Source: Thermotogaceae bacterium (GTDB lineage: Bacteria > Thermotogota > Thermotogae > B21-G9 > HyVt-16). Taken from it: a DNA stretch of 64,000 bases. Shown here one piece after another: positions 5,189 through 33,977 of this stretch (positions are counted from its first letter, which is position 1; each line of letters opens with the position of its first letter). The DNA is taken from contig JARRBB010000012.1 in assembly GCA_029981435.1 (NCBI GenBank), forward strand, positions 1-64,000. The letters run 5' to 3'. The notes under the pieces were generated by a model. That model did no database searches. It saw only the letters and a list, made by a program, of their open reading frames with translations, and was not told the origin of the DNA. The translations under genes and the position numbers were made by a program.

Positions 5189-5839
5189 ATGAGAAAAAAA
5201 CTTGAAATATCACTTGTTAGAACAAAGGTTTATGATTTATTAAAAGAAGAAATACTCAGCGGTGAAATTCATCTCGGTCAACGATTAAATGTAAGGAAAT
5301 TATCAGAAGAGCTTGGAATAAGTCCAACTCCTGTAAGAGATGCTTTGTTAGCTCTTTCAGCTGATGGATTAGTGAGAGTAGTCCCAAGGGTTGGATTTTT
5401 TGTCACTGAGCTAACCGAAAACTACATAAACGAAATTATAGAGAGTCGAATAATGGTAGAAAGCTTTTGTTTGAAAAAGTATTTTGATGAAATAAGAAAC
5501 TCTCCAGATATTTTAAAGCTTTATGATGAAGTAAAGAAAGTGATTGATACAGAGAATAGAAAACTGTTTGATGAGTCTGATGAGGTTCTTCATATGTTGA
5601 TAGTAAAAAGTTCTTCAAATAAAACCATTATAGATTTTTATGAAAAACTTTGGGATAAGATAGATCTGGTTAGGCATTTGAACAAAAGATATTTAGATTC
5701 AAACAAAGAGCATTTATCGATAATAGAAAGTATTTTGAAAAACGAGAAAGAAAGTGCTATTAAATTTCTTTTAAGGCATATAGAAAACGTTAAGGATGAA
5801 ACTTTAAAGAATTTGAAAACAAGTAAGGTGACAAAATGA
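5189..5839 (+). CDS. GntR-family regulator (FCD/FadR subfamily)
   Basis: N-terminal wHTH (VYDLLKEEILSGEIHLGQRLNVRKLSEELGISPTPVRDALLAL) plus helical C-terminal domain. Confidence 0.93.
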   Translation: MRKKLEISLVRTKVYDLLKEEILSGEIHLGQRLNVRKLSEELGISPTPVRDALLALSADGLVRVVPRVGFFVTELTENYINEIIESRIMVESFCLKKYFDEIRNSPDILKLYDEVKKVIDTENRKLFDESDEVLHMLIVKSSSNKTIIDFYEKLWDKIDLVRHLNKRYLDSNKEHLSIIESILKNEKESAIKFLLRHIENVKDETLKNLKTSKVTK

Positions 5840-6888: not shown

Positions 6889-8286
6889 ATGTCAAACATC
6901 AAAATTTCTTTCATAGGTGCTGGTAGTGTTAGATACACATTAAAGCTCATTGGAGATCTCTGCAAAACTCCTGAGTTGAGTAATGTTACTGTGACTCTAA
7001 TGGATATTGATGAAGAAAGATTGGAGGCTATTTACAATCTTTCAAAAAGGTATAACGATGAACTTGGAGCGTCACTAAAGATTGAAAAGACAACAGATCT
7101 TCAAAAAGCACTTGATGGTGCTAGTTTTGTTATAAATACAGCACTTGCCAGAGCAGAAGGACATGAAGATGGATATGTTCAGTACGAGATGATGAGGGAT
7201 GTAGGAGAAAAGCATGGTTATTATCGTGGTATAGATAGTCAAGAATTCAATATGGTATCGGATTACTATACGATAGGCGGATTTAATCAATTGAAGATGT
7301 CACTTGAGATAGGAAAAGCTGTTGAAAAATACTGTCCTGATGCTTACTTGATTCAAACAGCAAATCCCGTTTTTGAAATAACACAACTTGTTTTGAGGCA
7401 GACAGGAGCCAAAATAATAGGTTTTTGCCATGGTTTCGGCGGGGCCTTTGAACTTTTTGAAGCTCTGGGTTTGGATAAAAATAAAGTTGACTGGCAAGTC
7501 GCAGGTGTTAATCATGGAATCTTTTTGAACAGGTTTGTCTATAAAGGCGAAAATGCTTATCCCCTTCTTGAAAAATGGATAGAAGAAAAATCTTCTCAAT
7601 GGGAACCTAAAGATCCATGGGATACTCAATTGAGCCCTGCTGCTATAGATATGTATAAGTTTTATGGAATGATTCCAATAGGAGATGCTCCAAGAAATGG
7701 CAGCTGGAAATATCATTATAATCTTGAGACTAAAAAGAAGTGGTATGGAAAATTCGGTGGAATAGACAATGAGGTTGAAAGACCTAAATACTATGAAAAA
7801 CTCAGAGAAATAAAAAGAAAACTCATAGAAGTTTCAAAAGATCCAAAAATAAAGCTCACGGAGCTCTGGCCAGAGGAATTTACAAAAGACAAATTGAGTG
7901 GAGAACAGCAAATACCATTTATAAACGCTTTAACGAATGGGAAAAAAGTAAGACTGTTTTTGAATATACTTAACAACGGAATAATATCTAAAGTACCTGA
8001 AGATGTAGTAGTGGAGGTACCTGTTTGGGTTGATAAAACTGGAATTCATCCAGAGAAAATAGAACCAGATTTAACAGATAGAATCAAAAAATTCTTTCTC
8101 TTACCGAGGATAATGCGAATGGAAATGGCCCTTGAGGCTTTCGTAACTGGTGATAGGAAGGTACTGGAAGAAATCCTCATCAGAGATCCAAGAACAAAAT
8201 CATACGAACAGGTTAAAGCTGTTATAGATGAAATATTAGATCTACCTTTCAACAAAGAAATGAAGGAGCATTATTCCAAGGTTTAA
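6889..8286 (+). CDS. Glycoside hydrolase family 4, probable alpha-glucuronidase
   Basis: FIGAGSVRYTLKLIGD, QTANPVFE, CHGFGG motif (CHGx-type, associated with GH4 alpha-glucuronidases of Thermotoga), VNHGIFL. Confidence 0.85.
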   Translation: MSNIKISFIGAGSVRYTLKLIGDLCKTPELSNVTVTLMDIDEERLEAIYNLSKRYNDELGASLKIEKTTDLQKALDGASFVINTALARAEGHEDGYVQYEMMRDVGEKHGYYRGIDSQEFNMVSDYYTIGGFNQLKMSLEIGKAVEKYCPDAYLIQTANPVFEITQLVLRQTGAKIIGFCHGFGGAFELFEALGLDKNKVDWQVAGVNHGIFLNRFVYKGENAYPLLEKWIEEKSSQWEPKDPWDTQLSPAAIDMYKFYGMIPIGDAPRNGSWKYHYNLETKKKWYGKFGGIDNEVERPKYYEKLREIKRKLIEVSKDPKIKLTELWPEEFTKDKLSGEQQIPFINALTNGKKVRLFLNILNNGIISKVPEDVVVEVPVWVDKTGIHPEKIEPDLTDRIKKFFLLPRIMRMEMALEAFVTGDRKVLEEILIRDPRTKSYEQVKAVIDEILDLPFNKEMKEHYSKV

Positions 8287-8374: not shown

Positions 8375-10087
8375 ATGCTCAGACCTCAGCATAATGGAAT
8401 TAGAAACGTTTATGATCTCAGTGGGATATGGGAGCTTGAAGTTAAAGGAAGAAAAAGGCCTATAACTGTTCCTGCAAGCTGGAATGAGCAGTATCAGGAT
8501 CTTTGCTATGAAGAGGGACCTGTCGTTTACAAGAAATTTTTCTATGTACCTGCAGACTTTAGAGGCAAAAAAATCAGGATTTATTTTGGAGCTGTGAACA
8601 CTGACTGTATTGTTTATGTGAATGGAAATAAAGTGGCGGAGAATCATATAGGTTATCTTCCTTTTGAGGCAGACATAACTGATTTTACAAGATTTGGAGA
8701 AGAAAATATTCTTGAAGTGAAAGTGGAAAACCATTTAAAAACCGGTTCATTTCCAGCAGGAAAGACACCTCCCAAAGACCTACTTATAGGTTCACCAGAT
8801 AGTTTTCCAGCAACTAACTTTGATTTCTTCCCATATGGTGGAATCATAAGAAATGTAAATTTAGAAGTTTGTAATCTTGAGAAAATAACAGATGTATCTG
8901 TTGACACAAGCACCTCAAAACCAGAGAAAAGACTTGGAATTGTGAAGTTAAATGTCAAGGTTTCTGAAAGCTCTATTGGAAAGATTCTCGAAATAGAATT
9001 AGCTTCTAAGAAAAAAGAAATAGAGATTGTGAAAGATTCTATCGATACCGAATTCAAAATAGAGAACGTAAGATTCTGGCGATTGAATGCCCCATATCTT
9101 TATAAGTTAAAGCTTAAAATAAAGGATAGTGAAAAGCTTCTTGATTATTATGAACTCAAGATAGGTATAAGAACCATCGAATGGGATGAAAAAAAGTTGT
9201 ATCTGAACAAAGAACCAATTTTCCTGAAAGGTTTTGGAAAACATGAAGAGTTTCCTATACTTGGACAGGGTACTTTTTATCCAATGATGATAAAAGACTT
9301 CAGTTTACTGAAATGGATTGGAGCCAATTCATTCAGAACCTCGCATTATCCATACAGTGAAGAGTGGCTCGATCTTGCAGATGAGCTTGGAATATTGGTG
9401 ATAGATGAAGCACCACATGTTGGCGTAACCAGATATCATTACAATCCAGAAACAGAAAAGTTAGCAGTCGACAATGTGAAACGAATGATAGAGAGGGATA
9501 AAAATCACCCATCGGTTATTATGTGGAGTGTTGCAAATGAACCTGAATCTAATCATCCAGATGCTGAAAGTTTTTTCAAAGCACTTTATGAAACTGCGAA
9601 GCAGTTGGATAAAACCAGGCCAATTACTTTAGTGAGTTGTTTGGACCAGCCTGATGCTAGAACAAGAGACGTAGCATTGAAATACTTTGATATAGTTAGC
9701 ATCAACAGATACTACGGTTGGTATATCTTTCAAGGTAGAATCGATGAAGGTTTGAAAGCCTTAGATAAAGATGTAGAAGAACTTTATCAGAGGCACAAAA
9801 AACCAGTGGTAGTAACAGAATTTGGAGCAGATGCGATAAGTGGATATCACTATGATCCACCACAGATGTTTTCAGAGGAATATCAAGCTGAGTTAGTGGA
9901 AAAAACGATAAAACTTCTGAGAGAAAAAGATTTCATTGTTGGTATTCATGTTTGGGCATTTGCTGATTTCAAAACTCCACAAAATATTAGAAGACCAATA
10001 TACAACCATAAAGGTGTTTTTACGAGAACCAGAGAACCCAAATTGACTGCTCATGTTTTACGTAAGTTTTGGAATAATGCTTTTTGA
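8375..10087 (+). CDS. uidA: Glycoside hydrolase family 2, beta-glucuronidase-like
   Basis: MLRPQHNGIRNVYDLSGIWEL N-terminus, GFGKHEEFPILGQG, MWSVANEPES acid/base, VVTEFGADAISGYHYDPPQMFSEEYQ nucleophile region. Confidence 0.88.
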   Translation: MLRPQHNGIRNVYDLSGIWELEVKGRKRPITVPASWNEQYQDLCYEEGPVVYKKFFYVPADFRGKKIRIYFGAVNTDCIVYVNGNKVAENHIGYLPFEADITDFTRFGEENILEVKVENHLKTGSFPAGKTPPKDLLIGSPDSFPATNFDFFPYGGIIRNVNLEVCNLEKITDVSVDTSTSKPEKRLGIVKLNVKVSESSIGKILEIELASKKKEIEIVKDSIDTEFKIENVRFWRLNAPYLYKLKLKIKDSEKLLDYYELKIGIRTIEWDEKKLYLNKEPIFLKGFGKHEEFPILGQGTFYPMMIKDFSLLKWIGANSFRTSHYPYSEEWLDLADELGILVIDEAPHVGVTRYHYNPETEKLAVDNVKRMIERDKNHPSVIMWSVANEPESNHPDAESFFKALYETAKQLDKTRPITLVSCLDQPDARTRDVALKYFDIVSINRYYGWYIFQGRIDEGLKALDKDVEELYQRHKKPVVVTEFGADAISGYHYDPPQMFSEEYQAELVEKTIKLLREKDFIVGIHVWAFADFKTPQNIRRPIYNHKGVFTRTREPKLTAHVLRKFWNNAF

Positions 10088-10136
10088 ATCTGGTTTTAAA
10101 CCAGATAACTAAAATTATTAAGGGAGGGGATTTTTT

Positions 10137-11414
10137 ATGAAGCGGCATTTAGTAGTGTTAGTTGCTGTACTGATACTATCATTCGTTGCAGGTGCAGTGA
10201 AATTAAGCATGTATGTCGGCGATGAAACCATGGCCAGAGTAATGAAGACTGTTACGGAAGCATACGTTAAGGAGAATCCAGCTGTAGAATTCGATATCAT
10301 TGCTCTTCCGTATTATGGTGGTTTCATGCAGAAAGTTTCTTTGTCAATAATGAGTGGAGATGTTCCAGATTTAATCCAGGTTACAACAGCCTACGCACCC
10401 CAAGTAAAAGAATATTTGCTAAACTTAACACCTGACATTGAAAAAGCTCTTGGAATGACATCAAAAGATTATTTAAGCTCAATCTTTGACGTTACAAGTG
10501 TTTACATGACGCAAGAAGATGAAATTAAACTTATTCCATTGGAATTCACCATAACCGGAATTTGGGTAAACAAAGATATGTTTGAAAAAGCAGGAATAAA
10601 ATACCCCCCAACAGGCGGAAAAGATGAGCCTTGGACTTGGGAAGAGTTCAAAGATTTACTGGGAAAAGTAAAAAAAGCAAACAGAATACCCTATGCGCTT
10701 TCATTCGATTATTCGGCAGACAGGTTCTTCAATTACCTTGCTCTCTGGAATGTGAAAGTCTTAGAAGACGACACAAGTTTTGTTCTCGATAAATATCCAG
10801 AAGCTGTAAAGGCAATAGAGGAATTTATAGATTTGTTTAAGAAAAATCTTGTTCCAAAAGCTGAGTGGTTGAGTGGTCAAAGTGCTCAACAAGATTTCTT
10901 TGGTGGCAGAACAGCGGCATATTGGTCTGGAAGCTGGCAATGTAAAAATGCACTTGACATGATGAAGGAAACAAACAAAAACTTCGATGTGGCTTATGTT
11001 CCGATGATGAAAGATTGGTTTGGTGTTCCTGGAGGTAGTTTCTTGGGAGCTTTCAAGACTGGTGACAAGGAGAAAGAAGCCGAAGCCAAGAAATTCATAA
11101 CTTGGCTGGCTAATAAAGATAAAGGATATGCTGTTTTCTTAAAGGAAGGTCTATATCTTACTGCGTATAAAAATCATGTAGTTGATTATGGAATACCCGA
11201 ATTCAACAAATGGGCAAACGAAGTTTTCTCGAAGCTTGGTGAGCGTTCACCAGTATGGACAGCAACGACCAGAGCGAACGTTATTTGGAGCAAACTTTAT
11301 GATGTAGTAAGAAAGCAGCTGGCTTTAGGAATAACCGGAGAAGTTACCGCAAAAGAAATTGTTAATAATCTCAAAAATGAATACGAAAAAATAATTTCTG
11401 AAACATCTAAATAA
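10137..11414 (+). CDS. Extracellular solute-binding protein of a carbohydrate ABC transporter (family 1)
   Basis: Signal peptide; PDLIQ, GRTAAYWSGSWQ, family-1 SBP layout; followed by two MalF/MalG-like permeases. Confidence 0.92.
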   Translation: MKRHLVVLVAVLILSFVAGAVKLSMYVGDETMARVMKTVTEAYVKENPAVEFDIIALPYYGGFMQKVSLSIMSGDVPDLIQVTTAYAPQVKEYLLNLTPDIEKALGMTSKDYLSSIFDVTSVYMTQEDEIKLIPLEFTITGIWVNKDMFEKAGIKYPPTGGKDEPWTWEEFKDLLGKVKKANRIPYALSFDYSADRFFNYLALWNVKVLEDDTSFVLDKYPEAVKAIEEFIDLFKKNLVPKAEWLSGQSAQQDFFGGRTAAYWSGSWQCKNALDMMKETNKNFDVAYVPMMKDWFGVPGGSFLGAFKTGDKEKEAEAKKFITWLANKDKGYAVFLKEGLYLTAYKNHVVDYGIPEFNKWANEVFSKLGERSPVWTATTRANVIWSKLYDVVRKQLALGITGEVTAKEIVNNLKNEYEKIISETSK

Positions 11415-11420
11415 ATTTTA

Positions 11421-11455
11421 ATAACAAGCCATCCTGCAAAAGGATGGCTTGTTAT
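11421..11455 (+). other. Intercistronic stem-loop after the SBP gene
   Basis: ATAACAAGCCATCCT-gcaaa-AGGATGGCTTGTTAT, perfect 15-bp stem. Confidence 0.85.
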
Positions 11456-11479
11456 TTAATATAAAGGAGTGCACACGGT

Positions 11480-12346
11480 ATGAGAAGTGGTAATATAAAT
11501 ATTGTCAAAAATAGATTCGTTTTTGTGATACCTGGTTTGATCCTCTTTACTTTATTTGCCTTGATTCCTATTTTTTCGGTTTTTGTTATGGGGTTTACAT
11601 CGTGGGATTTACTTCATCCTATAAAATTTGTAGGATTAAGGAACTTCAAGAATATGCTTCATGATAAGTGGTTTTGGAATTCCATATTAGTTTCATTTAA
11701 ATTCATGGGAATTTCTGTTCCGTTGATATTTGTTTTGTCATTAGCGCTCGCACTTGCCCTATATAAAGAAGACAGATTTTCCAGAATTTTCAGAGCCTTC
11801 TTTTATTGGCCCTATATGATACCAGCAGTTGTTGGAGGTACTATGTGGAAGTGGCTTCTTTCATATGACACCGGGTTGCTGAATTATATACTTTTAAAAT
11901 TGGGGTTAGAACCGATTTCATGGCTTGAGGAATCTACAAATGCTCTAATTTCAGTCTCTATAGCACAAGTTTGGATATTAGCAGGTTTTATGATGATGAT
12001 ATTTATAACAGGTTTGCAGAATATACCAAGTGAATATCAAGAAGCCGCATTTGTAGACGGAGCAACCAAATGGCAAGTTTTCTGGTATGTAATATTTCCG
12101 TTGCTTAAAAATACAAACATTCTGGTTTTAATAGTTTCAATTGCATATTGTTTTAGAAGTTTTACAATTGTTTACATAATGACAACTGGTGGTCCTGGTT
12201 ATGCAACTACGGTTGCTCCATTGTATATATATCAAAGGGCTTTTACCGAATACAGAATTGGTTATGCTTCTGCTTTATCTGCAGTGGTTTTAATAATTGC
12301 TCTTGTGATTGCCTTGATAGTTCTAAGAGTTAGAAAATCAGACTAA
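11480..12346 (+). CDS. Carbohydrate ABC transporter permease (MalF/UgpA-like)
   Basis: Six TM segments; EYQEAAFVDGATKWQVFWYVIFPLLKN EAA motif. Confidence 0.93.
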   Translation: MRSGNINIVKNRFVFVIPGLILFTLFALIPIFSVFVMGFTSWDLLHPIKFVGLRNFKNMLHDKWFWNSILVSFKFMGISVPLIFVLSLALALALYKEDRFSRIFRAFFYWPYMIPAVVGGTMWKWLLSYDTGLLNYILLKLGLEPISWLEESTNALISVSIAQVWILAGFMMMIFITGLQNIPSEYQEAAFVDGATKWQVFWYVIFPLLKNTNILVLIVSIAYCFRSFTIVYIMTTGGPGYATTVAPLYIYQRAFTEYRIGYASALSAVVLIIALVIALIVLRVRKSD

Positions 12347-12364
12347 ACAGGAGGAACATAATTT

Positions 12365-13165
12365 ATGCTTAGGAAAACATTCATAATAATTTTAGTTATA
12401 ATTTTTATGCTCCCAGTATTTTGGTCAGTTATTTCATCATTCAAAAGTATAAGCGAAATTTATAATTATCCACCAACAGTATTTCCAAGTAAAATATCTT
12501 TTGAAGGATACTTAAGGGTTTTCAAAGATTATAATTTCATGACATATTTAAATAACACATTGTTTGTGGCTGTAATTGCAACGGTGATAACAGTTTTGGT
12601 TTGTATTATGACAGGATATGGATTAGCAAAAGGTAGCTTCCCTGGTAAACAGCTTTTAACTAATGCAATGTTAACAACTTTATTCATAACTGCTCAAATA
12701 ATGATGGTGCCTCTTTTCATAGTTATAAAGAAATTGGAATTGGTTAACAGCCTTTGGGGATTGATAATTCCCGCTGTTTATACCCCGACAGGAACTTTTA
12801 CTGCTATTCAATATATGAAAGATATTCCAGATGAACTAATGGAAAGTGCTAAAATAGATGGTGCTAACGAATGGCAAATTTTTTGGAAAATCATTATGCC
12901 CTTATCTAAGCCTTTAGTAGCAGCTTTAGCAATCTTTTCATTCACCTGGCGATGGAACGATTTTATTTTACCTTTAATAGTTATAAACGATAGCAAACTT
13001 TACACTATTCAGCTTGCGTTATCAAGTCTCCAGGGTCAGTATAGTATTCCTTGGAATGCAATAATGGCCTTCTCAACTTTAGCAATAGTACCAACACTGG
13101 TGATATTTTTGTTGTTCCAGAAGCTTTTTATGAGAGGCCTTATGGCTGGAGGGTTGAAGTATTAA
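12365..13165 (+). CDS. Carbohydrate ABC transporter permease (MalG/UgpE-like)
   Basis: ELMESAKIDGANEWQIFWKIIMPLSKP EAA motif; C-terminal GLMAGGLK(Y). Confidence 0.93.
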   Translation: MLRKTFIIILVIIFMLPVFWSVISSFKSISEIYNYPPTVFPSKISFEGYLRVFKDYNFMTYLNNTLFVAVIATVITVLVCIMTGYGLAKGSFPGKQLLTNAMLTTLFITAQIMMVPLFIVIKKLELVNSLWGLIIPAVYTPTGTFTAIQYMKDIPDELMESAKIDGANEWQIFWKIIMPLSKPLVAALAIFSFTWRWNDFILPLIVINDSKLYTIQLALSSLQGQYSIPWNAIMAFSTLAIVPTLVIFLLFQKLFMRGLMAGGLKY

Positions 13166-13202
13166 GGAGATTTACAAATTTTTATAAGGGAGGTGTTTAA
13201 AA

Positions 13203-14162
13203 ATGAGGAAGTTCTTAGTAGTTCTTGTTTTATTAGTAATTGGTACTATGTTTCTTTTTGCAGGTCCGATAATATTAAGAGCTGCTGATGATCATGCTGA
13301 GGGATATCCAACAGTAGAAGGATTAAAAGTTATGGCAAGAGTTATCGAAGTTATGACAAACGGAAAATACAAGGTGGAAATTTATCCAAGCGCACAGCTG
13401 GGTTCAGAGAAAGAGACAGTTGAACAAACAATACTTGGTGCAATCGATATCAACAGAGTTTCTATTTCACCAATAGTAGCCTTTTATGAACCAATGGGCG
13501 TCTTTTCGATGCCGTATCTTTTCAGAGATCAGGAACACATGTGGAAAGTTCTCGAGGGGTCTATTGGTGAAGAACTTTTAAAAGGGCTTGAAGAAGTAGG
13601 GCTTGTTGGTCTCTGTTATTACGATGCAGGTGCGAGAAGCTTTTACACGGTAAAAAAACCCGTACTTAAACCTGAAGACCTCAAAGGTATGAAGATAAGG
13701 GTACAAAAAAATCCAGTTATGATCAACCTGATGAAAGTGCTTGGTGCTTCACCTGTTCCGATGGCTTTCGAAGAAGTGTATACAGCTCTTCAAACAGGCG
13801 TTATAGACGGTGCTGAAAACAATCCACCAAGTTATTATGAAACAAGACATTTTGAAGTAGCTAAATATTACAGTTTAGATGGTCATACAAGAATACCGGA
13901 AGTTGTTGTTGTTTCAAAAGTTCTTTGGGATCAGTTAACCCCTGAAGAAAAAATAATTTTCAAGACAGCGGCTATAGCATCAGTTGAGTACGAGAAACTT
14001 CTCTGGAATCAATGGGAAGAAAAAGCTATGAAGGCTGTTCAAGAAGGTGGAGCACAGATATTCTACCCTGATGTTACTCTTTTCCAAAAGGCGGTTCAAC
14101 CATTGTACGATCAGTATCCACAGTATAAAGAACTAATAGAGAAAATACAGGCAGTTAAATAA
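13203..14162 (+). CDS. TRAP transporter substrate-binding protein DctP
   Basis: Signal peptide; YPSAQLGSEKE, GMKIRVQKNPVM, EVYTALQTGVIDGAENNPPSY. Confidence 0.93.
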   Translation: MRKFLVVLVLLVIGTMFLFAGPIILRAADDHAEGYPTVEGLKVMARVIEVMTNGKYKVEIYPSAQLGSEKETVEQTILGAIDINRVSISPIVAFYEPMGVFSMPYLFRDQEHMWKVLEGSIGEELLKGLEEVGLVGLCYYDAGARSFYTVKKPVLKPEDLKGMKIRVQKNPVMINLMKVLGASPVPMAFEEVYTALQTGVIDGAENNPPSYYETRHFEVAKYYSLDGHTRIPEVVVVSKVLWDQLTPEEKIIFKTAAIASVEYEKLLWNQWEEKAMKAVQEGGAQIFYPDVTLFQKAVQPLYDQYPQYKELIEKIQAVK

Positions 14163-14170
14163 TTCGAATT

Positions 14171-14200
14171 AATAACCCGGGGGTACTCCTCCGGGTTATT
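14171..14200 (+). other. Intercistronic stem-loop between dctP and dctQ
   Basis: AATAACCCGG-gggtactcct-CCGGGTTATT. Confidence 0.8.
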
Positions 14201-14215
14201 GAAGGAGGAAAAGTT

Positions 14216-14698
14216 ATGAAGTTTCTCAATAAAATTTCAGAGATTTTGGAGAAAATCATAACTTATTTTGCTATAAGTGGTCTTGCCTTTATGTTGATTA
14301 TTATTTTTTATCAGGTTGTTGCAAGATATATTTTCAACAATCCACCAACTTGGTCTGAAGAACTTGCACTTCTTGTAATGATATGGATATCGCTTCTTGG
14401 AGCAGGTATAGGCTTCCGTAAGGAAATACATATGAAAGTTGAGCTTTTTATAAATCTGTTTCCTAATTGGCTTAGAAAGATTCTCGAAATAGTAGTTTTG
14501 ATACTCTTAGGTTATTTTGGATATATGATGACAAAGTACAGTTACATCTTATCGATAAGACTACCAAATAAAATGCCGGCAACGGGGATACCTGTCTGGT
14601 GGATGTATATTCCCGCTATGATATGTGGAATTTTGATAATATTCAGTGTAGTAATAAGAATAACGGTTGATTTGATTTTTGGGGGAGAAAGAAAATGA
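14216..14698 (+). CDS. TRAP transporter small permease DctQ
   Basis: Four-TM DctQ layout; FNNPPTWSEELALLVMIWISLLGAGIGFR. Confidence 0.92.
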   Translation: MKFLNKISEILEKIITYFAISGLAFMLIIIFYQVVARYIFNNPPTWSEELALLVMIWISLLGAGIGFRKEIHMKVELFINLFPNWLRKILEIVVLILLGYFGYMMTKYSYILSIRLPNKMPATGIPVWWMYIPAMICGILIIFSVVIRITVDLIFGGERK

Positions 14699-16095
14699 AA
14701 ATAAGAATAAAAATTCCATCTTTATTGACTTTGATAGTTATTATTATACTAACTGCAATTATTCTTTCGCTTTTTCTGAAACTCCCTTTCACTCGAAACA
14801 TTTCTCGAAATGATGCAGGAACGACTATTTTACTTTCAACATTCTTTTTAACGATATTAAAGGGTATGCCTGTATCGGTTTCTCTTGGATTGTCTTCACT
14901 TTTAACTGCTTTTTATTTAAGACTGCCAGCGATGGTTATATTTCAAAGAATAAGTGCCGGTATAAATTCTTTTTCACTTATAGCGATTCCTTTCTTCATA
15001 CTTGCAGGCCAAATAATGGCTGATGGTGGTATAGCTCAAAAAATAGTTGAATTTTCAAATATATTGGTTGGAAGGATAAGAGGCGGGCTTGCTATGGTCA
15101 ACATAGTAGCAAGTATGTTTTTTGGTGGGGTTTCAGGTTCATCGGTAGCAGATACTTCATCAATTGGCGCTTTGTTGATACCTATGATGGTTAAAGAAGG
15201 TTACGATAGAGAATTTTCAGTTGCAGTTACTATCACTTCTTCAACACAAGGGATAATAATACCACCGAGTCATAACATGATAATTTATTCACTTGCAGCC
15301 GGAGGAGTTTCCATTGGTGCGTTGTTTATGGCGGGTTATATTCCCGGGATAATGGTTGGAATTGCACAGATGATCGTTGCATACATAATATCAAAGAAAC
15401 GAAATTATCCAGTGGCTGGTAAGGTAGGTTTTAAAGAAGCTTTGAAAATAACAAGAGACTCAATACTTGGTCTTTTAGTTGGATTAATAATAATCCTTGG
15501 TATAATCCTTGGAATATTTACTGCAACTGAAGCTTCTGTTGTTGCAGCGGTCTACGCGTTGATAATAACCATGTTCGTTTACAAAACTATGGGATTAAAA
15601 AAACTAATAGAAGTTTTCAAAAGCGCTTCAATAACAATTGCAATGGTTTTATTCCTAATAGCCAATGCATCAGCCTTTGGTTATTTGATGGCATATTTGA
15701 GAATACCGACTACTATTGCCCAGGCACTTTTGAGTGTTACAACTAATAAATACCTTTTGATGTTGTTGATAAATGGGGTTCTTTTATTACTTGGAATGAT
15801 AATGGACATGGCCCCCTTAATATTGATAGTTACTCCTATACTTCTTCCGATTGTTACCAAATTTGGATGGTCACCTATTCAATTTGGAATAATATTAATG
15901 CTGAACCTCTCAATAGGTCTTTGCACTCCACCGGTTGGTAACACCTTGTTCGTTGGTTGTGCCGTGGGAAAAACAACCATTGAAAAAACTGTAAAAGCTA
16001 TGTGGCCTTTTTATATTGCCATGATTATTATTCTCTTACTTGTTACTTATATACCTTGGTTTACAATGTTTTTAGGTAGCATATTTGAAAGATAA
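14695..16095 (+). CDS. TRAP transporter large permease DctM
   Basis: IAIPFFILAGQIM, GGVSGSSVADTSSIG, LSIGLCTPPVGNTLFVG; ATGA overlap with dctQ. Confidence 0.94.
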   Translation: MKIRIKIPSLLTLIVIIILTAIILSLFLKLPFTRNISRNDAGTTILLSTFFLTILKGMPVSVSLGLSSLLTAFYLRLPAMVIFQRISAGINSFSLIAIPFFILAGQIMADGGIAQKIVEFSNILVGRIRGGLAMVNIVASMFFGGVSGSSVADTSSIGALLIPMMVKEGYDREFSVAVTITSSTQGIIIPPSHNMIIYSLAAGGVSIGALFMAGYIPGIMVGIAQMIVAYIISKKRNYPVAGKVGFKEALKITRDSILGLLVGLIIILGIILGIFTATEASVVAAVYALIITMFVYKTMGLKKLIEVFKSASITIAMVLFLIANASAFGYLMAYLRIPTTIAQALLSVTTNKYLLMLLINGVLLLLGMIMDMAPLILIVTPILLPIVTKFGWSPIQFGIILMLNLSIGLCTPPVGNTLFVGCAVGKTTIEKTVKAMWPFYIAMIIILLLVTYIPWFTMFLGSIFER

Positions 16096-16120
16096 ACTTA
16101 TAATCTGGAGGTGGGTTATC

Positions 16121-17530
16121 TTGAAAGCTGATATAGGTTTAATAGGTCTTGCAGTTATGGGACAAAATTTGGCACTGAATATAGCTCGTAAGGGGTATAA
16201 TGTTGCCGTTTACAACAGAAGCCCGAAAAGAACTGAAGATTTGTTGAAAAGGGTTAAAGATGAAAAAATAACGCCCGCTTATGAGCTGAAAGAATTTATA
16301 GATTCGTTGCAAAAACCAAGGAAGATAATATTGATGGTTAAAGCTGGGAACCCTGTTGATCAGATGATAGAACAACTTTTGCCTTATTTAGAAAAGGGAG
16401 ATTTGATAATCGACGGTGGAAATTCACATTATTTGGATACAAATCGAAGATTGAAAGAATTGTCTGAAAAAGGGATTCTTTTTCTTGGAATGGGTGTGTC
16501 AGGTGGTGAATATGGCGCTCTTCATGGTCCATCTTTGATGCCGGGTGGAAGTAAAGAGGCATACGAAATGGTGGAAGAAATCTTGTTGAAAATAGCTGCA
16601 AAGAGCGATGAAGGTCCTTGCTGTACATATGTTGGTAATACTTCCGCTGGTCACTTTGTTAAAATGGTTCATAATGGTATCGAATACGCAATAATGCAGG
16701 CTATTGCAGAAACCTATGATATCATGAGAAAAATTCTGAAGATGGATGTAAAAGAAATAGGAGATGTCTTTGAAAACTGGAACAAAGGAGAATTAAATTC
16801 TTTCTTGATAGAAATTACATACAAAATTATGCGTAAGATAGATGAAGAAACAGGCAAACCGTTAGTTAATTTAATACTGGACAAAGCGGAGCAAAAAGGA
16901 ACAGGGAAATGGACAGCTCAAGCAGCTCTTGATCTTGGGATACCTACACCATCACTGAATTTTGCTTTAATCGCCAGAGTAATTTCTAATTTTAAAGAGG
17001 ATAGAGTAAATTTGTCTAAGATTTTTGAAAAAAGAATCCTATCTGTTTCCATTGATAAAGTAAGATTATTAGAAGACCTCGAAAAAGCTTTACTGTTTTC
17101 CATTTTCATATCTTTTTCACAGGGATTATGGCTTATTTCGCAGGCATCGGATACTTACGATTATGGGATAAATCTCTCAGAAGTTACAAGGATTTGGAAG
17201 AATGGTTGTATAATACGTGCGAAAATGTTAGATTTTTTAAAAAATATATTGGAAGAAGATAAATCGAATGTCTACCTTTTGAAAAGTGAAAAGGCCCTTT
17301 CTTTTCTAAAAGAAAAAGTTGATTCTGTTATCAATGTTACAGAGGTAGCAAGAAAATTTTGGGTGCCAACCCCTGTTCTAAACTCCTCACTTGACTTTTT
17401 ATTTAGTATGATTGAAAGAAATCTTCCGGCAAATTTAATACAGGCCCAAAGAGATTTCTTTGGTGCTCATACATTTGAAAGGATAGACAAAGAAGGTATT
17501 TTTCACGTCGAATGGATCGAGTTGGATTGA
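16121..17530 (+). CDS. gnd: 6-phosphogluconate dehydrogenase (decarboxylating)
   Basis: GLAVMGQNLALNIARKGYNVAVYNR, GGNSHYLDTNRR, GMGVSGGEYGALHGPSLMPGG, GHFVKMVHNGIEYA; TTG start with GGAGGTG upstream. Confidence 0.94.
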   Translation: MKADIGLIGLAVMGQNLALNIARKGYNVAVYNRSPKRTEDLLKRVKDEKITPAYELKEFIDSLQKPRKIILMVKAGNPVDQMIEQLLPYLEKGDLIIDGGNSHYLDTNRRLKELSEKGILFLGMGVSGGEYGALHGPSLMPGGSKEAYEMVEEILLKIAAKSDEGPCCTYVGNTSAGHFVKMVHNGIEYAIMQAIAETYDIMRKILKMDVKEIGDVFENWNKGELNSFLIEITYKIMRKIDEETGKPLVNLILDKAEQKGTGKWTAQAALDLGIPTPSLNFALIARVISNFKEDRVNLSKIFEKRILSVSIDKVRLLEDLEKALLFSIFISFSQGLWLISQASDTYDYGINLSEVTRIWKNGCIIRAKMLDFLKNILEEDKSNVYLLKSEKALSFLKEKVDSVINVTEVARKFWVPTPVLNSSLDFLFSMIERNLPANLIQAQRDFFGAHTFERIDKEGIFHVEWIELD

Positions 17531-17550
17531 AAACGAGGAGGTGTAATTTT

Positions 17551-18354
17551 ATGAAAATAGGTGCAAGGGATTACAGAGAAGGTTACAATGAAATTGTAAA
17601 ACAAGGTGATATGAAATTCGTGGAGTTCGGAATTTTGAAATTGCCAAGAAAAGGTGAATTTGAGCTTTTTGAGCATGATAAAGAATCTGCTTTGATACTT
17701 CTAAATGGTCAGGTTATTTTTGAAGTGAATGAAAAACCTTATAAAACGGGTATAAGGAAAGATTTGTTTAATACCAATGCCTGGGCTTTATATCTTCCAA
17801 AGGGTTTAAAAGTGAAAATAAAAGCCCTTGCAAATTCTGAAATTGCTGTAGCGAAAGCTCCAGCTGTTAAAGAAGGAAATGAGGTTTTCATAACCCCTGA
17901 TATGGTTAAAGTTAAATCCGTTGGTGAATGGAATTGGAGAAGAGATGTGAAAAATATTATCGATTCCTCAATTCCATCAGAACATTTCATAATAGGTGAG
18001 ACTGTTAATCCTCCGGGAAATTGGTCAAGCTGGCCTCCACATAAACATGATATAAACGATTATCCAAATGAAATTGATATGGAAGAAGTGTATTATTTCA
18101 AGGTAAACCCACCAACAGGATTTGGAGTTCAAAGAATATACGATGTTGATTTCAGTGAAATATACGTTGTTGAAGACGGAGATACAGTGTTGATAAAAAG
18201 AGGTTACCATCCAGTTGCTGCTGCTCCAGGACATCAGGTTTACTATCTGTGGATTTTGGGCGGTGAAGAGAGAATACTGCTACCAAATGATGATCCGAAA
18301 TTCAAATGGCAAAAACATCTGGAACCTCTAATCAGAGAAATTAAGAGAGGATGA
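17551..18354 (+). CDS. IolB-like 5-deoxy-glucuronate isomerase family protein; role in hexuronate isomerisation inferred
   Basis: GETVNPPGNWSSWPPHKHD, EVYYFKVNPPTGFGVQRIY, RGYHPVAAAPGHQVYYLWILGG. Confidence 0.85.
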   Translation: MKIGARDYREGYNEIVKQGDMKFVEFGILKLPRKGEFELFEHDKESALILLNGQVIFEVNEKPYKTGIRKDLFNTNAWALYLPKGLKVKIKALANSEIAVAKAPAVKEGNEVFITPDMVKVKSVGEWNWRRDVKNIIDSSIPSEHFIIGETVNPPGNWSSWPPHKHDINDYPNEIDMEEVYYFKVNPPTGFGVQRIYDVDFSEIYVVEDGDTVLIKRGYHPVAAAPGHQVYYLWILGGEERILLPNDDPKFKWQKHLEPLIREIKRG

Positions 18355-19835
18355 TCAATTTGGATAAAAAAGAAGTTTTTATCCTGTTTAATGAACATTT
18401 GGGAAGAGGTTATTCGATATATGAAAAATCCTTCAAAACAAAGGGAAATTTTGCACTTTTTATGGTGAAAGGAAATAAAAAAAAGGAATTAGTCTTGACT
18501 TCAAAAACAGATGATAAAAAAGGATTTGATGTGATTAAAAAGGATAAAATAAAAGATTATTACTTCCATTTCTGTGAACTATCTCACAAAAATGCAGATA
18601 CATTGAAGAAAATTTTCCCTAATCTTAATCCAATTCCTTGCTTAAATAAAGCTTCATTTGGAACTGGAGACAGGCTTGGAATTACAACACCCGGCCATTT
18701 ACGTGCTTTTGATAATTCAAAATTGTTTCCATTTTTGGCACAACAATCTGTTCGCGAAAATGAAAGAACAAGAAGAACCTGGAAAGATGTTCTTAATGAC
18801 GTCGTGTGGGGAATTTTTCAGGAAGGTTATGAAGGAGAATTTGGTGCAGATGCTGATCATATAAAAGAAGAAAAAGATCTTTTAGAGGCTATCGCTGAAG
18901 GTTTTACAATGTTTACAATCGATCCATCAGACCATGTTAGAGAGCTTTCTAAATTGTCTGAAAACCAAAAAAATGAAATCTATCAGGAAATTCTGAAAAA
19001 ACACAACGTTAATAAGTATCTTGAAAAAACTTACAAAATAGATGGAAAAATCCTGAACTTCGATGAAAAAACTCTTAGAGACGCGGCTGTCGTTTATTTT
19101 GATGCTATAGAACATGTTGAAAAAATGTACAAGGTTGTAAAGAAGAAAGTAAAAATGTTTGATTTTGAAATTTCAGTTGACGAGACTGAAACTCCTACAA
19201 GTCCATTGTTTCACATATTCATAGTAGAAGAACTCAGAAGAAGAAATGTTGAGTTTCAAAATCTCGCGCTCAGGTTTGTAGGGGATTGGCAGAAGGGAAT
19301 AGATTACATTGGAGATATAGAAGAGTTCAGAAAGGAAATAAAAATCCACTCGGAAATAGCCAGAAATTTCGGTGGCTACAAATTATCACTTCATTCTGGA
19401 AGTGACAAATTTTCTGTTTATAAGTATTTTTCTGAAAGTACAGAGGGGTTCTTTCATGTTAAAACAGCTGGAACGAGTTATCTCGAAGCTATAAAAATTA
19501 TAGCAATTCACTCGCCAGAGCTTTATCGTAAAATACATAAATTCGCTCTAAAGGTTTTTAATAAAGACAAGGCGTCGTATCATGTAACCACAGATCTTTC
19601 AAAAATACCAGATATTGACTTGTTAAAGAACCAAGAATTACCCAAACTTTTTGAAATCGATTCAGTGAGGCAATTGATCCATATAACTTATGGATCTGTT
19701 TTGAATGCAAGGAATGAAAAAGGCGAATATCTTTTCAGAGACAATCTTTACAAGATAATGTTTGATTATGAGGAAGAGTATTACGATTCGATAGCCAGAC
19801 ATATTGGTAAACATCTCGAATTACTTGGTTATTAA
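18351..19835 (+). CDS. uxaE: Tagaturonate/fructuronate epimerase UxaE-like
   Basis: Similar in length and in recalled motifs to T. maritima UxaE (TM0440): FGTGDRLGITTPGHLRA, GEFGADADHIKE, GFTMFTIDPSDHV, SLHSGSDKFSVY. Confidence 0.82.
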   Translation: MINLDKKEVFILFNEHLGRGYSIYEKSFKTKGNFALFMVKGNKKKELVLTSKTDDKKGFDVIKKDKIKDYYFHFCELSHKNADTLKKIFPNLNPIPCLNKASFGTGDRLGITTPGHLRAFDNSKLFPFLAQQSVRENERTRRTWKDVLNDVVWGIFQEGYEGEFGADADHIKEEKDLLEAIAEGFTMFTIDPSDHVRELSKLSENQKNEIYQEILKKHNVNKYLEKTYKIDGKILNFDEKTLRDAAVVYFDAIEHVEKMYKVVKKKVKMFDFEISVDETETPTSPLFHIFIVEELRRRNVEFQNLALRFVGDWQKGIDYIGDIEEFRKEIKIHSEIARNFGGYKLSLHSGSDKFSVYKYFSESTEGFFHVKTAGTSYLEAIKIIAIHSPELYRKIHKFALKVFNKDKASYHVTTDLSKIPDIDLLKNQELPKLFEIDSVRQLIHITYGSVLNARNEKGEYLFRDNLYKIMFDYEEEYYDSIARHIGKHLELLGY

Positions 19836-19853
19836 CTTTCGAGGAGTGATTAT

Positions 19854-21134
19854 ATGTTGTACAAAGAAAAATTAGACAGTTTTTTGAGTTTAGAAGACAT
19901 AGAAGAAATTTTAGAAGAACTTTTTCAAGACATCTCAAAAGTAAAAAAAGCTTTGTTAGTGCATCCCGACTACACCCGCCATGATTTCACCAATATGATA
20001 GTTCCAAAAATTTTAGAATTGCTTAGAAAAAGAGGATTGAAAGAATTACACACATTGAACTCAAGTGGAACACACAGAGCAATGAGAATAGAAGAATTTG
20101 AGAGAAAGCTTGGTATTAAACAATCGGAAGATGTGATTTTCCATAATCACGAATTTTTCAATCCTGAACAACTGGTGACTGTAGGAAAGTTACCAGCCGA
20201 TTTTGTTAAAAGTGTTACTGAAAATGAGATTGAAGATTCTATATCCGTTGATGTAAACAAAATGATATTCGATGGTTTCGATGTTATATTTGTTATAAGT
20301 GGTACTGTTCCTCACGAATCTGCTGGCTTCGGAGGAGGTCTAAAAGCTTTTATACCAGGGATAAGTGCTCCTGAAGTTGTAGATACATTCCATTGGGCTG
20401 CAGTTTTAGTAGGAATCCCAAAGATAATAGGTACTGTTGATAACCCGGCGCGCGATATAATAAACGAAGCCTCAAAATTGATATTCGAAAAAATAAATTC
20501 GCGAGTTTTTTCAATAAACATGATTTTTGAAGAAGAAATAGGAAGAGTAATACCTAAAGGATTGTACATAGCTGAACAATTCAATGGATTTATCGAAGCC
20601 TACAAAAAAGCATGTGAAGCAAGTTCAAAAATACATGTAAAATACATAGAAAAACCCATAAAACGAGCTGTACAGGTTATAGGTAGAGAATATGATGAAG
20701 TATGGACGGCTGGAAAGGGTTCTTATAAACTTCAAAGACCTGGTGTTATAGTTCCAGGTGGCGAAATAATAATATATGCCCCACACATTGAAAGATTTCA
20801 TTCGAATCCAGACATGGATAGATGGATTCGTGAAATAGGTTATCACTGTAAAGACTATGTGAAAGAATTTATGAAGAAAAATCCATATTTTAGCAGGAAT
20901 GTTGCTTCCCATGTTATAAACGTTACCGGACCTGGTAGTTACGATCCTGAAACAGGAAGAGAGGAACTTTTGTTCAGAGTAATACTTGCAACGAAAATAA
21001 GCAAGGAAGATTGTGAATCTGTAAATCTTGGATATATGTCTCCCGAAGAAGTTAAAAAAGAATATTTTGACGATGGAGAAAGTTTGTGGATAGAACCAGG
21101 TGGTAAGTATCTATATGATATAAAAAAGAGGTGA
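19854..21134 (+). CDS. LarA-family nickel-pincer (NPN) dependent 2-hydroxyacid racemase/epimerase homologue
   Basis: HPDYTRHDF, GTHR, TVPHESAGFGGGLKAFIPGISAPEVVDTFHW; His, Lys and second His spaced as in LarA H174/K184/H200. Confidence 0.88.
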   Translation: MLYKEKLDSFLSLEDIEEILEELFQDISKVKKALLVHPDYTRHDFTNMIVPKILELLRKRGLKELHTLNSSGTHRAMRIEEFERKLGIKQSEDVIFHNHEFFNPEQLVTVGKLPADFVKSVTENEIEDSISVDVNKMIFDGFDVIFVISGTVPHESAGFGGGLKAFIPGISAPEVVDTFHWAAVLVGIPKIIGTVDNPARDIINEASKLIFEKINSRVFSINMIFEEEIGRVIPKGLYIAEQFNGFIEAYKKACEASSKIHVKYIEKPIKRAVQVIGREYDEVWTAGKGSYKLQRPGVIVPGGEIIIYAPHIERFHSNPDMDRWIREIGYHCKDYVKEFMKKNPYFSRNVASHVINVTGPGSYDPETGREELLFRVILATKISKEDCESVNLGYMSPEEVKKEYFDDGESLWIEPGGKYLYDIKKR

Positions 21135-21138
21135 TAGC

Positions 21139-22251
21139 GTGCTTAAAGAACTTTTTAGAAAAAGAGTTGAAGATCTGAGAAACTACTTCAAGAGTAAAAA
21201 TGCTGATGGACTACTACTGAAAAGATGTGACAACTTTTCGTGGTTTACATTTGGAGGACGAAGTCATATAACCCTTGATACCAAAGAAGCAGGAGTGGCA
21301 TCCATTTTAGTAACCGAGAATAAAGTTTATCTATTCACTGACAACATTGAAAGAATGAGATTAGAAAAAGAGGAATTGAATGAGGAAATTTTAGATGAAT
21401 TAGAAATTGTTGAATACAAATGGTTTGAAAATGAGTATCAGTATTTGAACCCTTACATTAAAAATAAGAAAATCCTTTCAGATACTGATATGTACGATAC
21501 CATAAACGTGAAACCTGAAATAGCTCCTTTCAGATATGTACTTACAGATTATGAAATTCAAAACTATCGTGAACTTGGGAAAATTTGTGATTTGATAATG
21601 AATGAAGAGATGAAAAAGCTTAATCCAGATATGACTGAATTACAGGTTCAGGGAATATTCTATAATAAATTAGCAGAAAATGGGATAGAACCACTGTTAA
21701 CTATTGTTTTTGGCGAGGAAAGTGCGATGCTTTACAGACACAACCTTTCAAGAAATGTTAAACTCGGCAAAAAGGTTTTCGTAAGCTTATGTGCTCGCAA
21801 AAAGGGGCTCGTAGTTTCAATAACTCGTTCCATCCTTTTCAAAGAAGATAAAACTTTCATTAAACAGCATAAAGATAACTGCTACGTTGATGCAGTAGCC
21901 ATGGCAAATTCAATTCCCGGAAAAAAACTTTCTGATGTCTTTAAGAACATACAGTCAGCCTATTCAGAAGTTGGCAGAAATGATGAATGGAAGCTACATC
22001 ATCAAGGAGGTTTGGCTGGTTATAATTCGAGAGAATTAAAAGCAACTGGTAATTCGGATTATGTTTTGAAACCAGGAAATGCGCTTGCTTGGAATCCAAC
22101 GATAACAGGTACCAAATCTGAAGACACAATAGTAATAAATAAAAATGATTTTGAAATTCTCTCTTATCCTGAGGACAGCGACTGGCCTTCTCTGACATTT
22201 GAAATCAATGGTAAAAAAGTAAGAAGACCTGATATACTGGTTTTATCATAA
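21139..22251 (+). CDS. M24 (creatinase/prolidase-like) fold protein with degenerate metal site
   Basis: Creatinase-N-like N-terminus; C-terminus aligns to M24 around VSLCARKKGLVVSITRS, HHQGGLAGY and SEDTIVI, but several metal ligands are substituted. Confidence 0.75.
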   Translation: MLKELFRKRVEDLRNYFKSKNADGLLLKRCDNFSWFTFGGRSHITLDTKEAGVASILVTENKVYLFTDNIERMRLEKEELNEEILDELEIVEYKWFENEYQYLNPYIKNKKILSDTDMYDTINVKPEIAPFRYVLTDYEIQNYRELGKICDLIMNEEMKKLNPDMTELQVQGIFYNKLAENGIEPLLTIVFGEESAMLYRHNLSRNVKLGKKVFVSLCARKKGLVVSITRSILFKEDKTFIKQHKDNCYVDAVAMANSIPGKKLSDVFKNIQSAYSEVGRNDEWKLHHQGGLAGYNSRELKATGNSDYVLKPGNALAWNPTITGTKSEDTIVINKNDFEILSYPEDSDWPSLTFEINGKKVRRPDILVLS

Positions 22252-28576: not shown

Positions 28577-28848
28577 ATGATATTCCAAAAGCCGTTGCAC
28601 TCAGATATGACAGAGAATTGGAAGAAGCTCCAAGAATAATTGCACAGGGGAAAGGAGAAATAGCAAAAAAAATCATAGAAATAGCTCTTGAAAACAATAT
28701 ACCCATCCACGAGGATCCTGTTCTGGCGGATATTTTGTTAGACCTTGAATATTATTCAGAAATTCCTGAAGAGCTTTATCGTATAGTTGCCAAAGTGTTG
28801 ATTCTTGTTTATGAAATTGAAAATGAATTCAGCAAAAAGGTGGTGTAA
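28564..28848 (+). CDS. FlhB C-terminal-domain homologue (YlqH/EscU-like)
   Basis: KAVALRYDRELEEAPRIIAQGKGEIAKKIIEIALENNIPIHEDPVLADILLDLEYYSEIPEELYRIVAKVL. Confidence 0.88.
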   Translation: MDSLNDIPKAVALRYDRELEEAPRIIAQGKGEIAKKIIEIALENNIPIHEDPVLADILLDLEYYSEIPEELYRIVAKVLILVYEIENEFSKKVV

Positions 28849-28852
28849 ATTG

Positions 28853-30292
28853 ATGATAGTGGGTATCGATATAGGTACGGAGGGCCTTAGAGCGGTAACG
28901 TTTGATGAACAGAACTTGAAATTTATAGAATTTAAGGAAAATTACAAGGTATACTTTCCTGCCCCTGAACAAGCTATTCAAAAACCTGAAGAAATATTCA
29001 GCGCTCTTAAAAAAATATTGAAGAATTTTTCTGGTATGGATACTAAGGTTTACATCGGATTTAGTTCTGTGTTTCATAGCATTCTCGCTCTCGACGATGA
29101 GTTCAAACCTGTAACGGATTCCATAATTTGGGCAGACAGAAGAGCTGTTGGAGAAAAAGAGTTTCTTGAACAAAAATATGGCAGCAGATTTTTTTATGAA
29201 AGAACTGGCTGTCCACTTCATGCAATGTATTGGCCAGCAAAAATCTTATGGATTAAAAAAAGAACTCAGAATGTTGTCAAATTTTCTTCAATTAAATCTT
29301 ATCTCATATACAGAATCACAGGAAAACTTGTTGAGGAACTTTCACTTGCTTCTGGAACTGGAATTTTCAATATTCATCGCCAAAACTGGGATAAAGAAAT
29401 TTTGGAGATTCTTGGATCAAATGAAAAAGAACTGCCAGAAATTGTTTCGCCCTATGAAGTTATAAAAGCAAAAAGTGATTTCTCAAGAGAATTAGGATTT
29501 GATGAAATATATATCATCCCTGGTGCTGGTGATGGAGTACTTGCAAACTTTGGTGTTGGTGCCATAAATTCTAAAACTGCGGTTGTAACAGTCGGCACAA
29601 GTGGTGCAGTAAGATTGTTTTTCGACAAACCTATTTTAGATAATGAGGGAACAGCTACTTGGTGCTATTTGTTTGATGAGAAAAACTATGTTCTTGGTTC
29701 AGCCATAAACAACGGTGGAATTGTACTCATGTGGCTTCGTGAGACAATGAAATTTGACAGTTATGAAGAAATAATCGATGTCGCTATGAAATCTCCTGTG
29801 GGGGCTAAAGGACTGGTGTTTTTACCATATTTAAATGGTGAAAGATGTCCCAACTGGGTTGAAAAATATAAAGGAGTTATAGTGGGATTAACCTCTCTTC
29901 ATTCTCGAAATGATATCGCAAGATCAACACTGGAGGGAATAGGTTTCAGAGTTAAAGACATGCTGGAAAGCATAAAAAGAGTTAGTGGTACAGCTCCAGA
30001 AAAAATAATAGCAACAGGTGGTTTTACAAATTCAAAAGAATGGATTCAGATAGTTTCAAACATACTTGGTGAAAAGCTTGAAATAACCAATACAACTAAT
30101 CAATCTGCGATTGGTGCATACCTTATAGCAATGAAAGCTTTGAACTTGGGTTGGAAAAGGTTTCTGGACGAAAACATCAAAGTAGAAACAGTTGTGAATC
30201 CATCTAAGGAGGATTTCGAACTCTACGAAGATGTTTATAAAAGGTACAGATATCTTTATGACTTGCTGTTGAACTACTGGAAAGAATTTTAA
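28853..30292 (+). CDS. gntK: FGGY-family carbohydrate kinase, probable gluconokinase
   Basis: GIDIGTEGLRAVTFD, WADRRA, TVGTSGAVR (typical of FGGY gluconokinases), GSAINNGG. Start at ATG 28853 rather than 28805. Confidence 0.83.
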   Translation: MIVGIDIGTEGLRAVTFDEQNLKFIEFKENYKVYFPAPEQAIQKPEEIFSALKKILKNFSGMDTKVYIGFSSVFHSILALDDEFKPVTDSIIWADRRAVGEKEFLEQKYGSRFFYERTGCPLHAMYWPAKILWIKKRTQNVVKFSSIKSYLIYRITGKLVEELSLASGTGIFNIHRQNWDKEILEILGSNEKELPEIVSPYEVIKAKSDFSRELGFDEIYIIPGAGDGVLANFGVGAINSKTAVVTVGTSGAVRLFFDKPILDNEGTATWCYLFDEKNYVLGSAINNGGIVLMWLRETMKFDSYEEIIDVAMKSPVGAKGLVFLPYLNGERCPNWVEKYKGVIVGLTSLHSRNDIARSTLEGIGFRVKDMLESIKRVSGTAPEKIIATGGFTNSKEWIQIVSNILGEKLEITNTTNQSAIGAYLIAMKALNLGWKRFLDENIKVETVVNPSKEDFELYEDVYKRYRYLYDLLLNYWKEF

Positions 30293-30322: not shown

Positions 30323-31144
30323 TTATACACCTGAAAACGCACTGAAACCGCCATCTATCGGAATAACTGTCCCAGTCACAAAACTTGCGGCATCAGAAAT
30401 AAGCCATACACAAGCACCTATAAGTTCTTCAGGATTTCCAAAGCGCCCCATGGGTGTATGATCGATTATTGCCTTACCCCTTGTAGTTAAGTTACCATTT
30501 TCATCCAGTAACAGGTATCTGTTTTGATTTGTCAGGAAAAAACCTGGAGCAATGGCATTCACCCTAAGTTTTTTGTTGTATTCAAAAGCAAAATGTACTG
30601 CAAGCCATTGAGTAAAGTTACTCACAGCAGCTTTTGCGGCAGAATATCCAACTACACGTGTCAGAGGTCTAAAGGCAGCCATTGATGAAATATTTATTAT
30701 TGAACCGCCATTTTCGTTTTTTGCCATCGTCTTTCCAAATATCTGAGATGGCAAAATTGCGCCACCGAAAAGATTCAGAGCAACGACCTTTTCAAGAGCA
30801 TCGAATGGAATATCAAAAAATTCCAGTTCTGGAGATACGGTGGCTTCTTTCATATTTCCACCAGCTGCGTTTATCAATACATCTACTCTCCCGAATTTAT
30901 CGTAAATCTTCTCGTGAGTTTTTCTAATACTTTCAAGATCCAAAGCATCCATGTAATAACCTTCTACCTTTAGATTCAAACTCGAGAGTTTCTGCGCAAC
31001 AGAATCATAATTCCTTATGTCGCATATAACAACTTTAGAACCTAATTCTGCCAATCCACGTGCGATTTCTGAACCAAGTATTCCTGCTCCACCAGTTATA
31101 ACAACGACTTTTCCTTTAATGTCAAAAAGTTCCTTAACCTTCAT
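30323..31144 (-). CDS. SDR-family D-mannonate oxidoreductase (fructuronate reductase), UxuB/YjmF-like
   Basis: TGGAGILGSEIARGLAELG, INAAGGN, IINISSMAAFRPLTRVVGYSAAKAAVSNFTQWLAVHFA, APGFFLTNQNRYLL, PMGRFGNPEELIGA, PIDGGFSAFSGV. Confidence 0.85.
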   Translation of the reverse strand: MKVKELFDIKGKVVVITGGAGILGSEIARGLAELGSKVVICDIRNYDSVAQKLSSLNLKVEGYYMDALDLESIRKTHEKIYDKFGRVDVLINAAGGNMKEATVSPELEFFDIPFDALEKVVALNLFGGAILPSQIFGKTMAKNENGGSIINISSMAAFRPLTRVVGYSAAKAAVSNFTQWLAVHFAFEYNKKLRVNAIAPGFFLTNQNRYLLLDENGNLTTRGKAIIDHTPMGRFGNPEELIGACVWLISDAASFVTGTVIPIDGGFSAFSGV

Positions 31145-32111: not shown

Positions 32112-32120
32112 GATTTCTAA

Positions 32121-32152
32121 AAGGCCCGATCATTTCACAATGATTGGGCCTT
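32121..32152 (+). other. Intercistronic stem-loop between dctP and dctQ
   Basis: AAGGCCCGATCATT-tcac-AATGATTGGGCCTT, followed by TTATTTTA. Confidence 0.85.
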
Positions 32153-32184
32153 TTATTTTAACAATAATCCAGGGAGAGATGACA

Positions 32185-32676
32185 ATGAAGAAATTCAATG
32201 AATATCTTTATAGCTTTGAACGAAATGTCTCGAAAGTTTTGTTATTGTCAATGGTTGTCTTAGTTTTTATTTCCGCTATAGCAAGATTTGCTGGTCATCC
32301 AATGAACTGGGCTGTGGATTTGAGTACTTTCATGTTCGCCTGGGCATGTTTTTTAGCTGTGGACATCGCCTGGAAGGAAGATAAAATGATGTCTGTTGAT
32401 GTGTTAATCAGAAAACTGCCCGAAAAATGGCAGAAATTTTTTAAGCTAATAAACTATTTTATAATATCTGCGTTTTTGGTTTATCTGGTAATATGGGGTT
32501 TTTATCTTTCTTACACAACACGCTTCAGGACTTTTGTTGGTATTCCAAATTTTAGCTATAGCTGGGTTACACTTAGCATTGCCGTGGGTGCTGTTTTAAT
32601 GTTGAGAACAACAATCATTAAAATAAAGAAGGAACTCACAAAACCTGACAAATTGAAGCTTAAGGAGGATAAATAA
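32185..32676 (+). CDS. TRAP transporter small permease DctQ
   Basis: MKKFNEYLYSFERNVSKVLLLSMVVLVFISAIARFAGHPMNWAVDLSTFMFAWACFLAVDIAWKE; start moved downstream of the hairpin to an RBS-preceded ATG. Confidence 0.88.
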   Translation: MKKFNEYLYSFERNVSKVLLLSMVVLVFISAIARFAGHPMNWAVDLSTFMFAWACFLAVDIAWKEDKMMSVDVLIRKLPEKWQKFFKLINYFIISAFLVYLVIWGFYLSYTTRFRTFVGIPNFSYSWVTLSIAVGAVLMLRTTIIKIKKELTKPDKLKLKEDK

Positions 32677-32678
32677 CG

Positions 32679-33962: not shown

Positions 33963-33977
33963 AGGAGGTCAAATTTC

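Follow-up and report, generated by a model that had tools for sequence, protein, structure and literature searches.

An open reading frame at positions 19854 to 21134 of the DNA analyzed here, a 64,000-nucleotide stretch from a Thermotogaceae bacterium (the window), most probably (roughly 95%) is gntE, encoding an orthologue of Thermotoga maritima GntE2 (LarAH20) that, judging from its sequence, would convert D-mannonate to D-gluconate by means of the nickel-pincer nucleotide (NPN) cofactor. The GntE-type enzyme, the 4NAR structure and the uronate pathway were all published before, hence this identity is already known. Desguin et al. (2020) purified T. maritima GntE2 (PDB 4NAR), supplied NPN and established the protein as a D-gluconate 2-epimerase with a KM of 17 mM and a kcat of 197/s on D-mannonate and an optimum of 80-90 C, inactive on lactate, malate, hydroxyglutarate and phenyllactate (PMC7583248). 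GntE's standing as a recognised superfamily group was confirmed by a 2024 study (PMC11770544), and the operon logic has been published for the T. maritima UxaR regulon, which includes gnd, uxaE, uxaD, gntE and gntK (PMC3750489). Activity and NPN dependence were demonstrated by others for the orthologue, and by analogy we infer activity and flux in the source organism.

The reading frame is complete, encodes 426 amino acids from an ATG start, and is free of internal stops. Its match to the Pfam Lar_N domain (PF09861) scores 67.7 bits (cut-off 23.3, E=1e-18), far above chance. The top PDB sequence match found with phmmer is 4NAR, at 642 bits over the full length and with 274 of 415 aligned residues identical; lactate racemases come next at 44 bits or less. 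None of the NCBIfam models scores above its cut-off, and the nearest curated one, NF052594 (198 bits, family cut-off 500), describes LarAH18, a putative hexonate epimerase of a related group but not the group of this protein. A scan of the genome contigs with the GntE protein alone returned two loci, and a promoter and terminator scan around gntE gave nothing usable above chance.

The first-pass annotation had recognized equivalents of LarA H108, H174, K184 and H200, separated by spacings of 10 and 16 residues, and alignment bears this out. H74 in the motif SGTHR aligns with LarA H108, and H154, K164 and H180 in PHESAGFGGGLKAFIPGISAPEVVDTFH align with H174, K184 and H200, the spacings being exactly 10 (H154-K164) and 16 (K164-H180). 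D39, R42 and K288, which that annotation did not list, are also present, and the protein contains all of the catalytic set (D39, H74, H154 and K288, equivalent to LarA D72, H108, H174 and K298) and of the NPN-binding set (R42, K164 and H180, equivalent to R75, K184 and H200). For GntE2, NPN binding was assigned to R41, K164 and H180 and substrate choice to E155, S156, G286 and N348 (PMC7583248), and the assigned NPN, substrate and catalytic residues all have identical counterparts here. The specificity residues are E155 and S156 after the catalytic His, G287 before the catalytic Lys and N349 in alpha14, and across catalytic, NPN-binding and specificity positions the two proteins agree at 11 of 11 (D R H H E S K H G K N). 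LarA is unlike both at the specificity positions, where it has F/F or L/M, V and another residue. In place of the marks of a lactate racemase (an F-F loop, V before the catalytic Lys and a position in the LarA clade), the protein has E-S and G and lies outside that clade.

A tree of the LarA superfamily had been proposed as a check, and the maximum-likelihood tree of 30 rows places the protein inside the Thermotogota GntE clade and not with the lactate racemases, from which the GntE-like proteins split with 100/100 support. Its partner is one other Thermotogota sequence, and next to the two lies a Thermotoga-family clade of nine rows that includes 4NAR. Support within this part of the tree is moderate, at 94/91 and, for the join to the 4NAR clade, 94/93. 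The GntE-like rows share one residue string, except that in some rows A or T takes the place of S at a single loop position. The fold, the Lar_N domain and the catalytic residues are common to LarA and this protein and would suit a lactate racemase, but the tree and the residues rule that identity out, the missing LarA loop residues standing beside the split itself. Its chance is negligible on other grounds as well: the score for NF033504 is 65 bits (cut-off 460), the orthologue GntE2 lacks lactate activity (PMC7583248), and the LarA/Sar-like homologue of this genome is a different gene on contig C50. The earlier expectation of a sugar acid rather than lactate as substrate is upheld by the orthologue, which acts on D-mannonate and D-gluconate.

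The second LarA homologue on contig C50 (L057:3549-4811) falls with LarA/Sar in the tree, has the loop F-M, and adjoins electron transfer flavoprotein-like genes and a GlcD/FAD-type oxidase-like gene, with an oxidoreductase-like reading frame further downstream. It is probably a short-chain 2-hydroxyacid racemase. Multiple homologues were also seen elsewhere: a Candidatus Latescibacterota MAG has two tandem GntE-like LarA homologues (L031:7199-9778; 33-36% identity) that both keep the GntE residue string save one S/T change, and a further Thermotogota genome with GntE (G003, locus L029) has a second LarA homologue that is 30% identical.

An AlphaFold model built with four sequences (mean pLDDT 72.5, pTM 0.74) has 4NAR as its top Foldseek match (TM 0.82), followed by lactate and malate racemases (LarA and Mar structures, with Mar2 among the matches; TM 0.55-0.66), and the predicted structure has the LarA fold. 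The model is mediocre at residues 153-180, with low confidence in the active-site loop, and it supports the fold only, not the ligand geometry. The structure prediction suggested in the first-pass annotation therefore held for the fold and fell short for the ligands, whose superposability rests on the 66% identity to 4NAR, a structure that Desguin et al. superposed on LarA (PMC7583248).

The source genome encodes LarC (504 bits) and, as neighbors on contig C52, LarB (296 bits) and LarE (313 bits), all above curated cut-offs, so NPN can be made. The possibility of a non-NPN homologue in a genome without the cofactor genes is ruled out by their presence. Conserved residues, the identity to NPN-dependent GntE2 and these three genes together argue for the probable active NPN enzyme that had been predicted.

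As had also been claimed, gntE lies among uronate genes (Table 1), in an unbroken plus-strand run (5189-22251) with short gaps or overlaps that begins with the GntR regulator and ends with the M24-fold gene.

Table 1. Genes of the window in and around the gntE operon, with supporting evidence
Feature	Position	Strand	Evidence
GntR/FCD regulator	5189..5839	+	Pfam GntR, FCD; 58-66% identity to GntR gene inside other GntE clusters (blastp)
GH4 glycosidase	6889..8286	+	Pfam; NCBIfam AglA above cut-off
GH2 beta-glucuronidase-like glycosidase	8375..10087	+	PRK10150 528.5 bits, slightly below cut-off 544
Sugar ABC transporter, binding protein and two permeases	10137..13165	+	Second permease: sugar ABC permease models; other two: translation
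TRAP transporter DctP/DctQ/DctM	13203..16095	+	83/63/79% identity to TRAP genes adjoining gnd-uxaE-gntE in a Thermotoga-family genome (L040)
gnd, 6-phosphogluconate dehydrogenase (decarboxylating)	16130..17530	+	TIGR00873 613.6 bits, above cut-off
IolB/KduI-family isomerase, candidate UxaC replacement	17512..18354	+	KduI/IolB 245 bits; TIGR04378 IolB 214 bits, cut-off 205
uxaE, tagaturonate/fructuronate epimerase	18351..19835	+	Pfam UxaE 627.7 bits; kept in most GntE neighborhoods compared
gntE, probable LarA-superfamily D-gluconate/D-mannonate 2-epimerase (GntE2/LarAH20 orthologue)	19854..21134	+	66% identity to PDB 4NAR
M24/creatinase-fold protein	21139..22251	+	Pfam Peptidase_M24 46 bits; alignment to prolidase 3q6d
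FGGY kinase, probable gluconokinase gntK	28805..30292	+	Top PDB match gluconate kinase 3gbt
SDR D-mannonate oxidoreductase / fructuronate reductase	30323..31144	-	NF006132 353 bits, cut-off 281

The kinase has gntK_FGGY as its top NCBIfam model, below the cut-off of that model, and is 53-55% identical to the kinase adjoining gntE in other Thermotogota, while the SDR is 56-76% identical to the one adjoining gntE in most clusters; both genes lie outside the operon, 6.5-9 kb downstream. In the Thermotogota neighborhoods that we read, gntE occurs with uxaE and the SDR reductase, and in many also with 6-phosphogluconate dehydrogenase or gluconokinase. With its tagaturonate epimerase, D-mannonate oxidoreductase, gluconokinase and 6-phosphogluconate dehydrogenase, the window encodes the remainder of the proposed route from fructuronate through mannonate, gluconate and 6-phosphogluconate to ribulose-5-phosphate, and the gene set agrees with both this route and the T. 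maritima UxaR regulon. There is a slim chance that the NPN epimerase has another main substrate, either an aldarate or another hexonate (e.g. D-altronate, L-idonate or L-gulonate): the KM of GntE2 for D-mannonate is fairly high, another hexonate could be the best substrate here, and a different native substrate is suspected for another GntE group (PMC7583248). Against this, every specificity position equals that of GntE2, and the neighborhood includes genes for gluconokinase and D-mannonate oxidoreductase as well as gnd.

GntE2 shares with this protein its full-length identity, its catalytic, NPN and specificity residues and a uronate operon with uxaE, gnd and a regulator, whereas here the kinase and reductase genes are outside the operon, an M24-fold gene follows gntE, and the N-termini show short differences. 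LarA of L. plantarum (5HUQ/6C1W) and T. thermosaccharolyticum (2YJG) shares the fold and the NPN and catalytic residues, but is 14-18% identical in a structure-based alignment, has F-F rather than E-S in the loop, and has another gene context. The UxaR regulon matches in its pathway genes and in having a GntR regulator homologous to the one here, but in the window the regulator heads the operon, an IolB/KduI gene separates gnd from uxaE, and the reductase belongs to the SDR type of other Thermotogota families and differs from that of Thermotoga, with which it shares 33% identity.

Two further features of the window were recorded. In the M24-fold protein, aligned with 3q6d, both metal-binding Asp of prolidase are replaced by Ser and further ligands look lost; judged on these residues it is likely not a metallopeptidase, and another genome (L044) has a 57% identical relative some 6 kb away from gntE. 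A second TRAP transporter cluster at 31263-37542, with an SDR, an RpiR regulator, a 2-hydroxyacid dehydrogenase and a DHDPS/KDG-aldolase-family gene, is possibly another sugar-acid route.

In the pathway that we propose, an isomerase would convert glucuronate or galacturonate to fructuronate or tagaturonate, which UxaE would interconvert, and the SDR would reduce fructuronate to D-mannonate. GntE would then form D-gluconate, GntK would phosphorylate this to 6-phosphogluconate and Gnd would yield ribulose-5-phosphate, so that GntE would tie uronate catabolism to the oxidative branch of the pentose phosphate pathway. In the enzyme, NPN would be held by K164 and H180 with R42 close by, and H74 and H154 would act as the two proton acceptors and donors, while hydride would leave C2 of D-mannonate for NPN and come back on the other face to give D-gluconate.

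The make-up of this pathway is the one mildly new point. UxaC, UxuA and KDPG aldolase were not found in searches of the draft source genome (93.7% complete, 97 contigs, gaps possible), for each of which the T. maritima control was positive. The missing UxaC, together with the PDB molecule name of 4NAR, 'putative uronate isomerase', could suggest that gntE itself encodes a uronate isomerase, but the 4NAR protein was itself assayed as an NPN-dependent C2 epimerase (PMC7583248), and this literature rules the name out as a function. UxaC is moreover present in 20 of the 24 Thermotogota genomes with a GntE-like match, which means that GntE does not take its place, and we regard a uronate isomerase as wholly improbable.

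We tentatively suggest, at somewhat worse than even odds, that GntE, in a genome where neither UxuA nor KDPG aldolase was found, is the sole exit from D-mannonate and that the IolB/KduI-family protein, not UxaC, makes fructuronate and tagaturonate. A report on E. coli describes KduI as promoting the conversion of glucuronate and galacturonate, with the mechanism left open (PMC3578941), and it is reasonable to think that the protein may replace UxaC here. A KduI-family gene is absent from the three other UxaC-negative genomes with a GntE-like match, so this exchange is not a general rule. Elsewhere in the phylum, a 49% identical homologue adjoins a related TRAP transporter in a genome that has UxaC (L054). 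A true IolD was not found in the source genome, and the IolD-like match at 52635-54206 is an acetolactate synthase whose gene belongs to a branched-chain amino acid operon, which makes an inositol role of the IolB-like protein unlikely.

These results extend GntE2 to another Thermotogota order and confirm that raw sequence can reveal a nickel-pincer epimerase through the spacing of its catalytic residues and its gene context, at a time when misleading database names such as 'lactate racemase N-terminal domain' and 'putative uronate isomerase' persist. If the suggested pathway variant is true, all uronate carbon in this organism would have to pass both an uncharacterised isomerase and a nickel-pincer step, and its use of uronates would be testably nickel-dependent.
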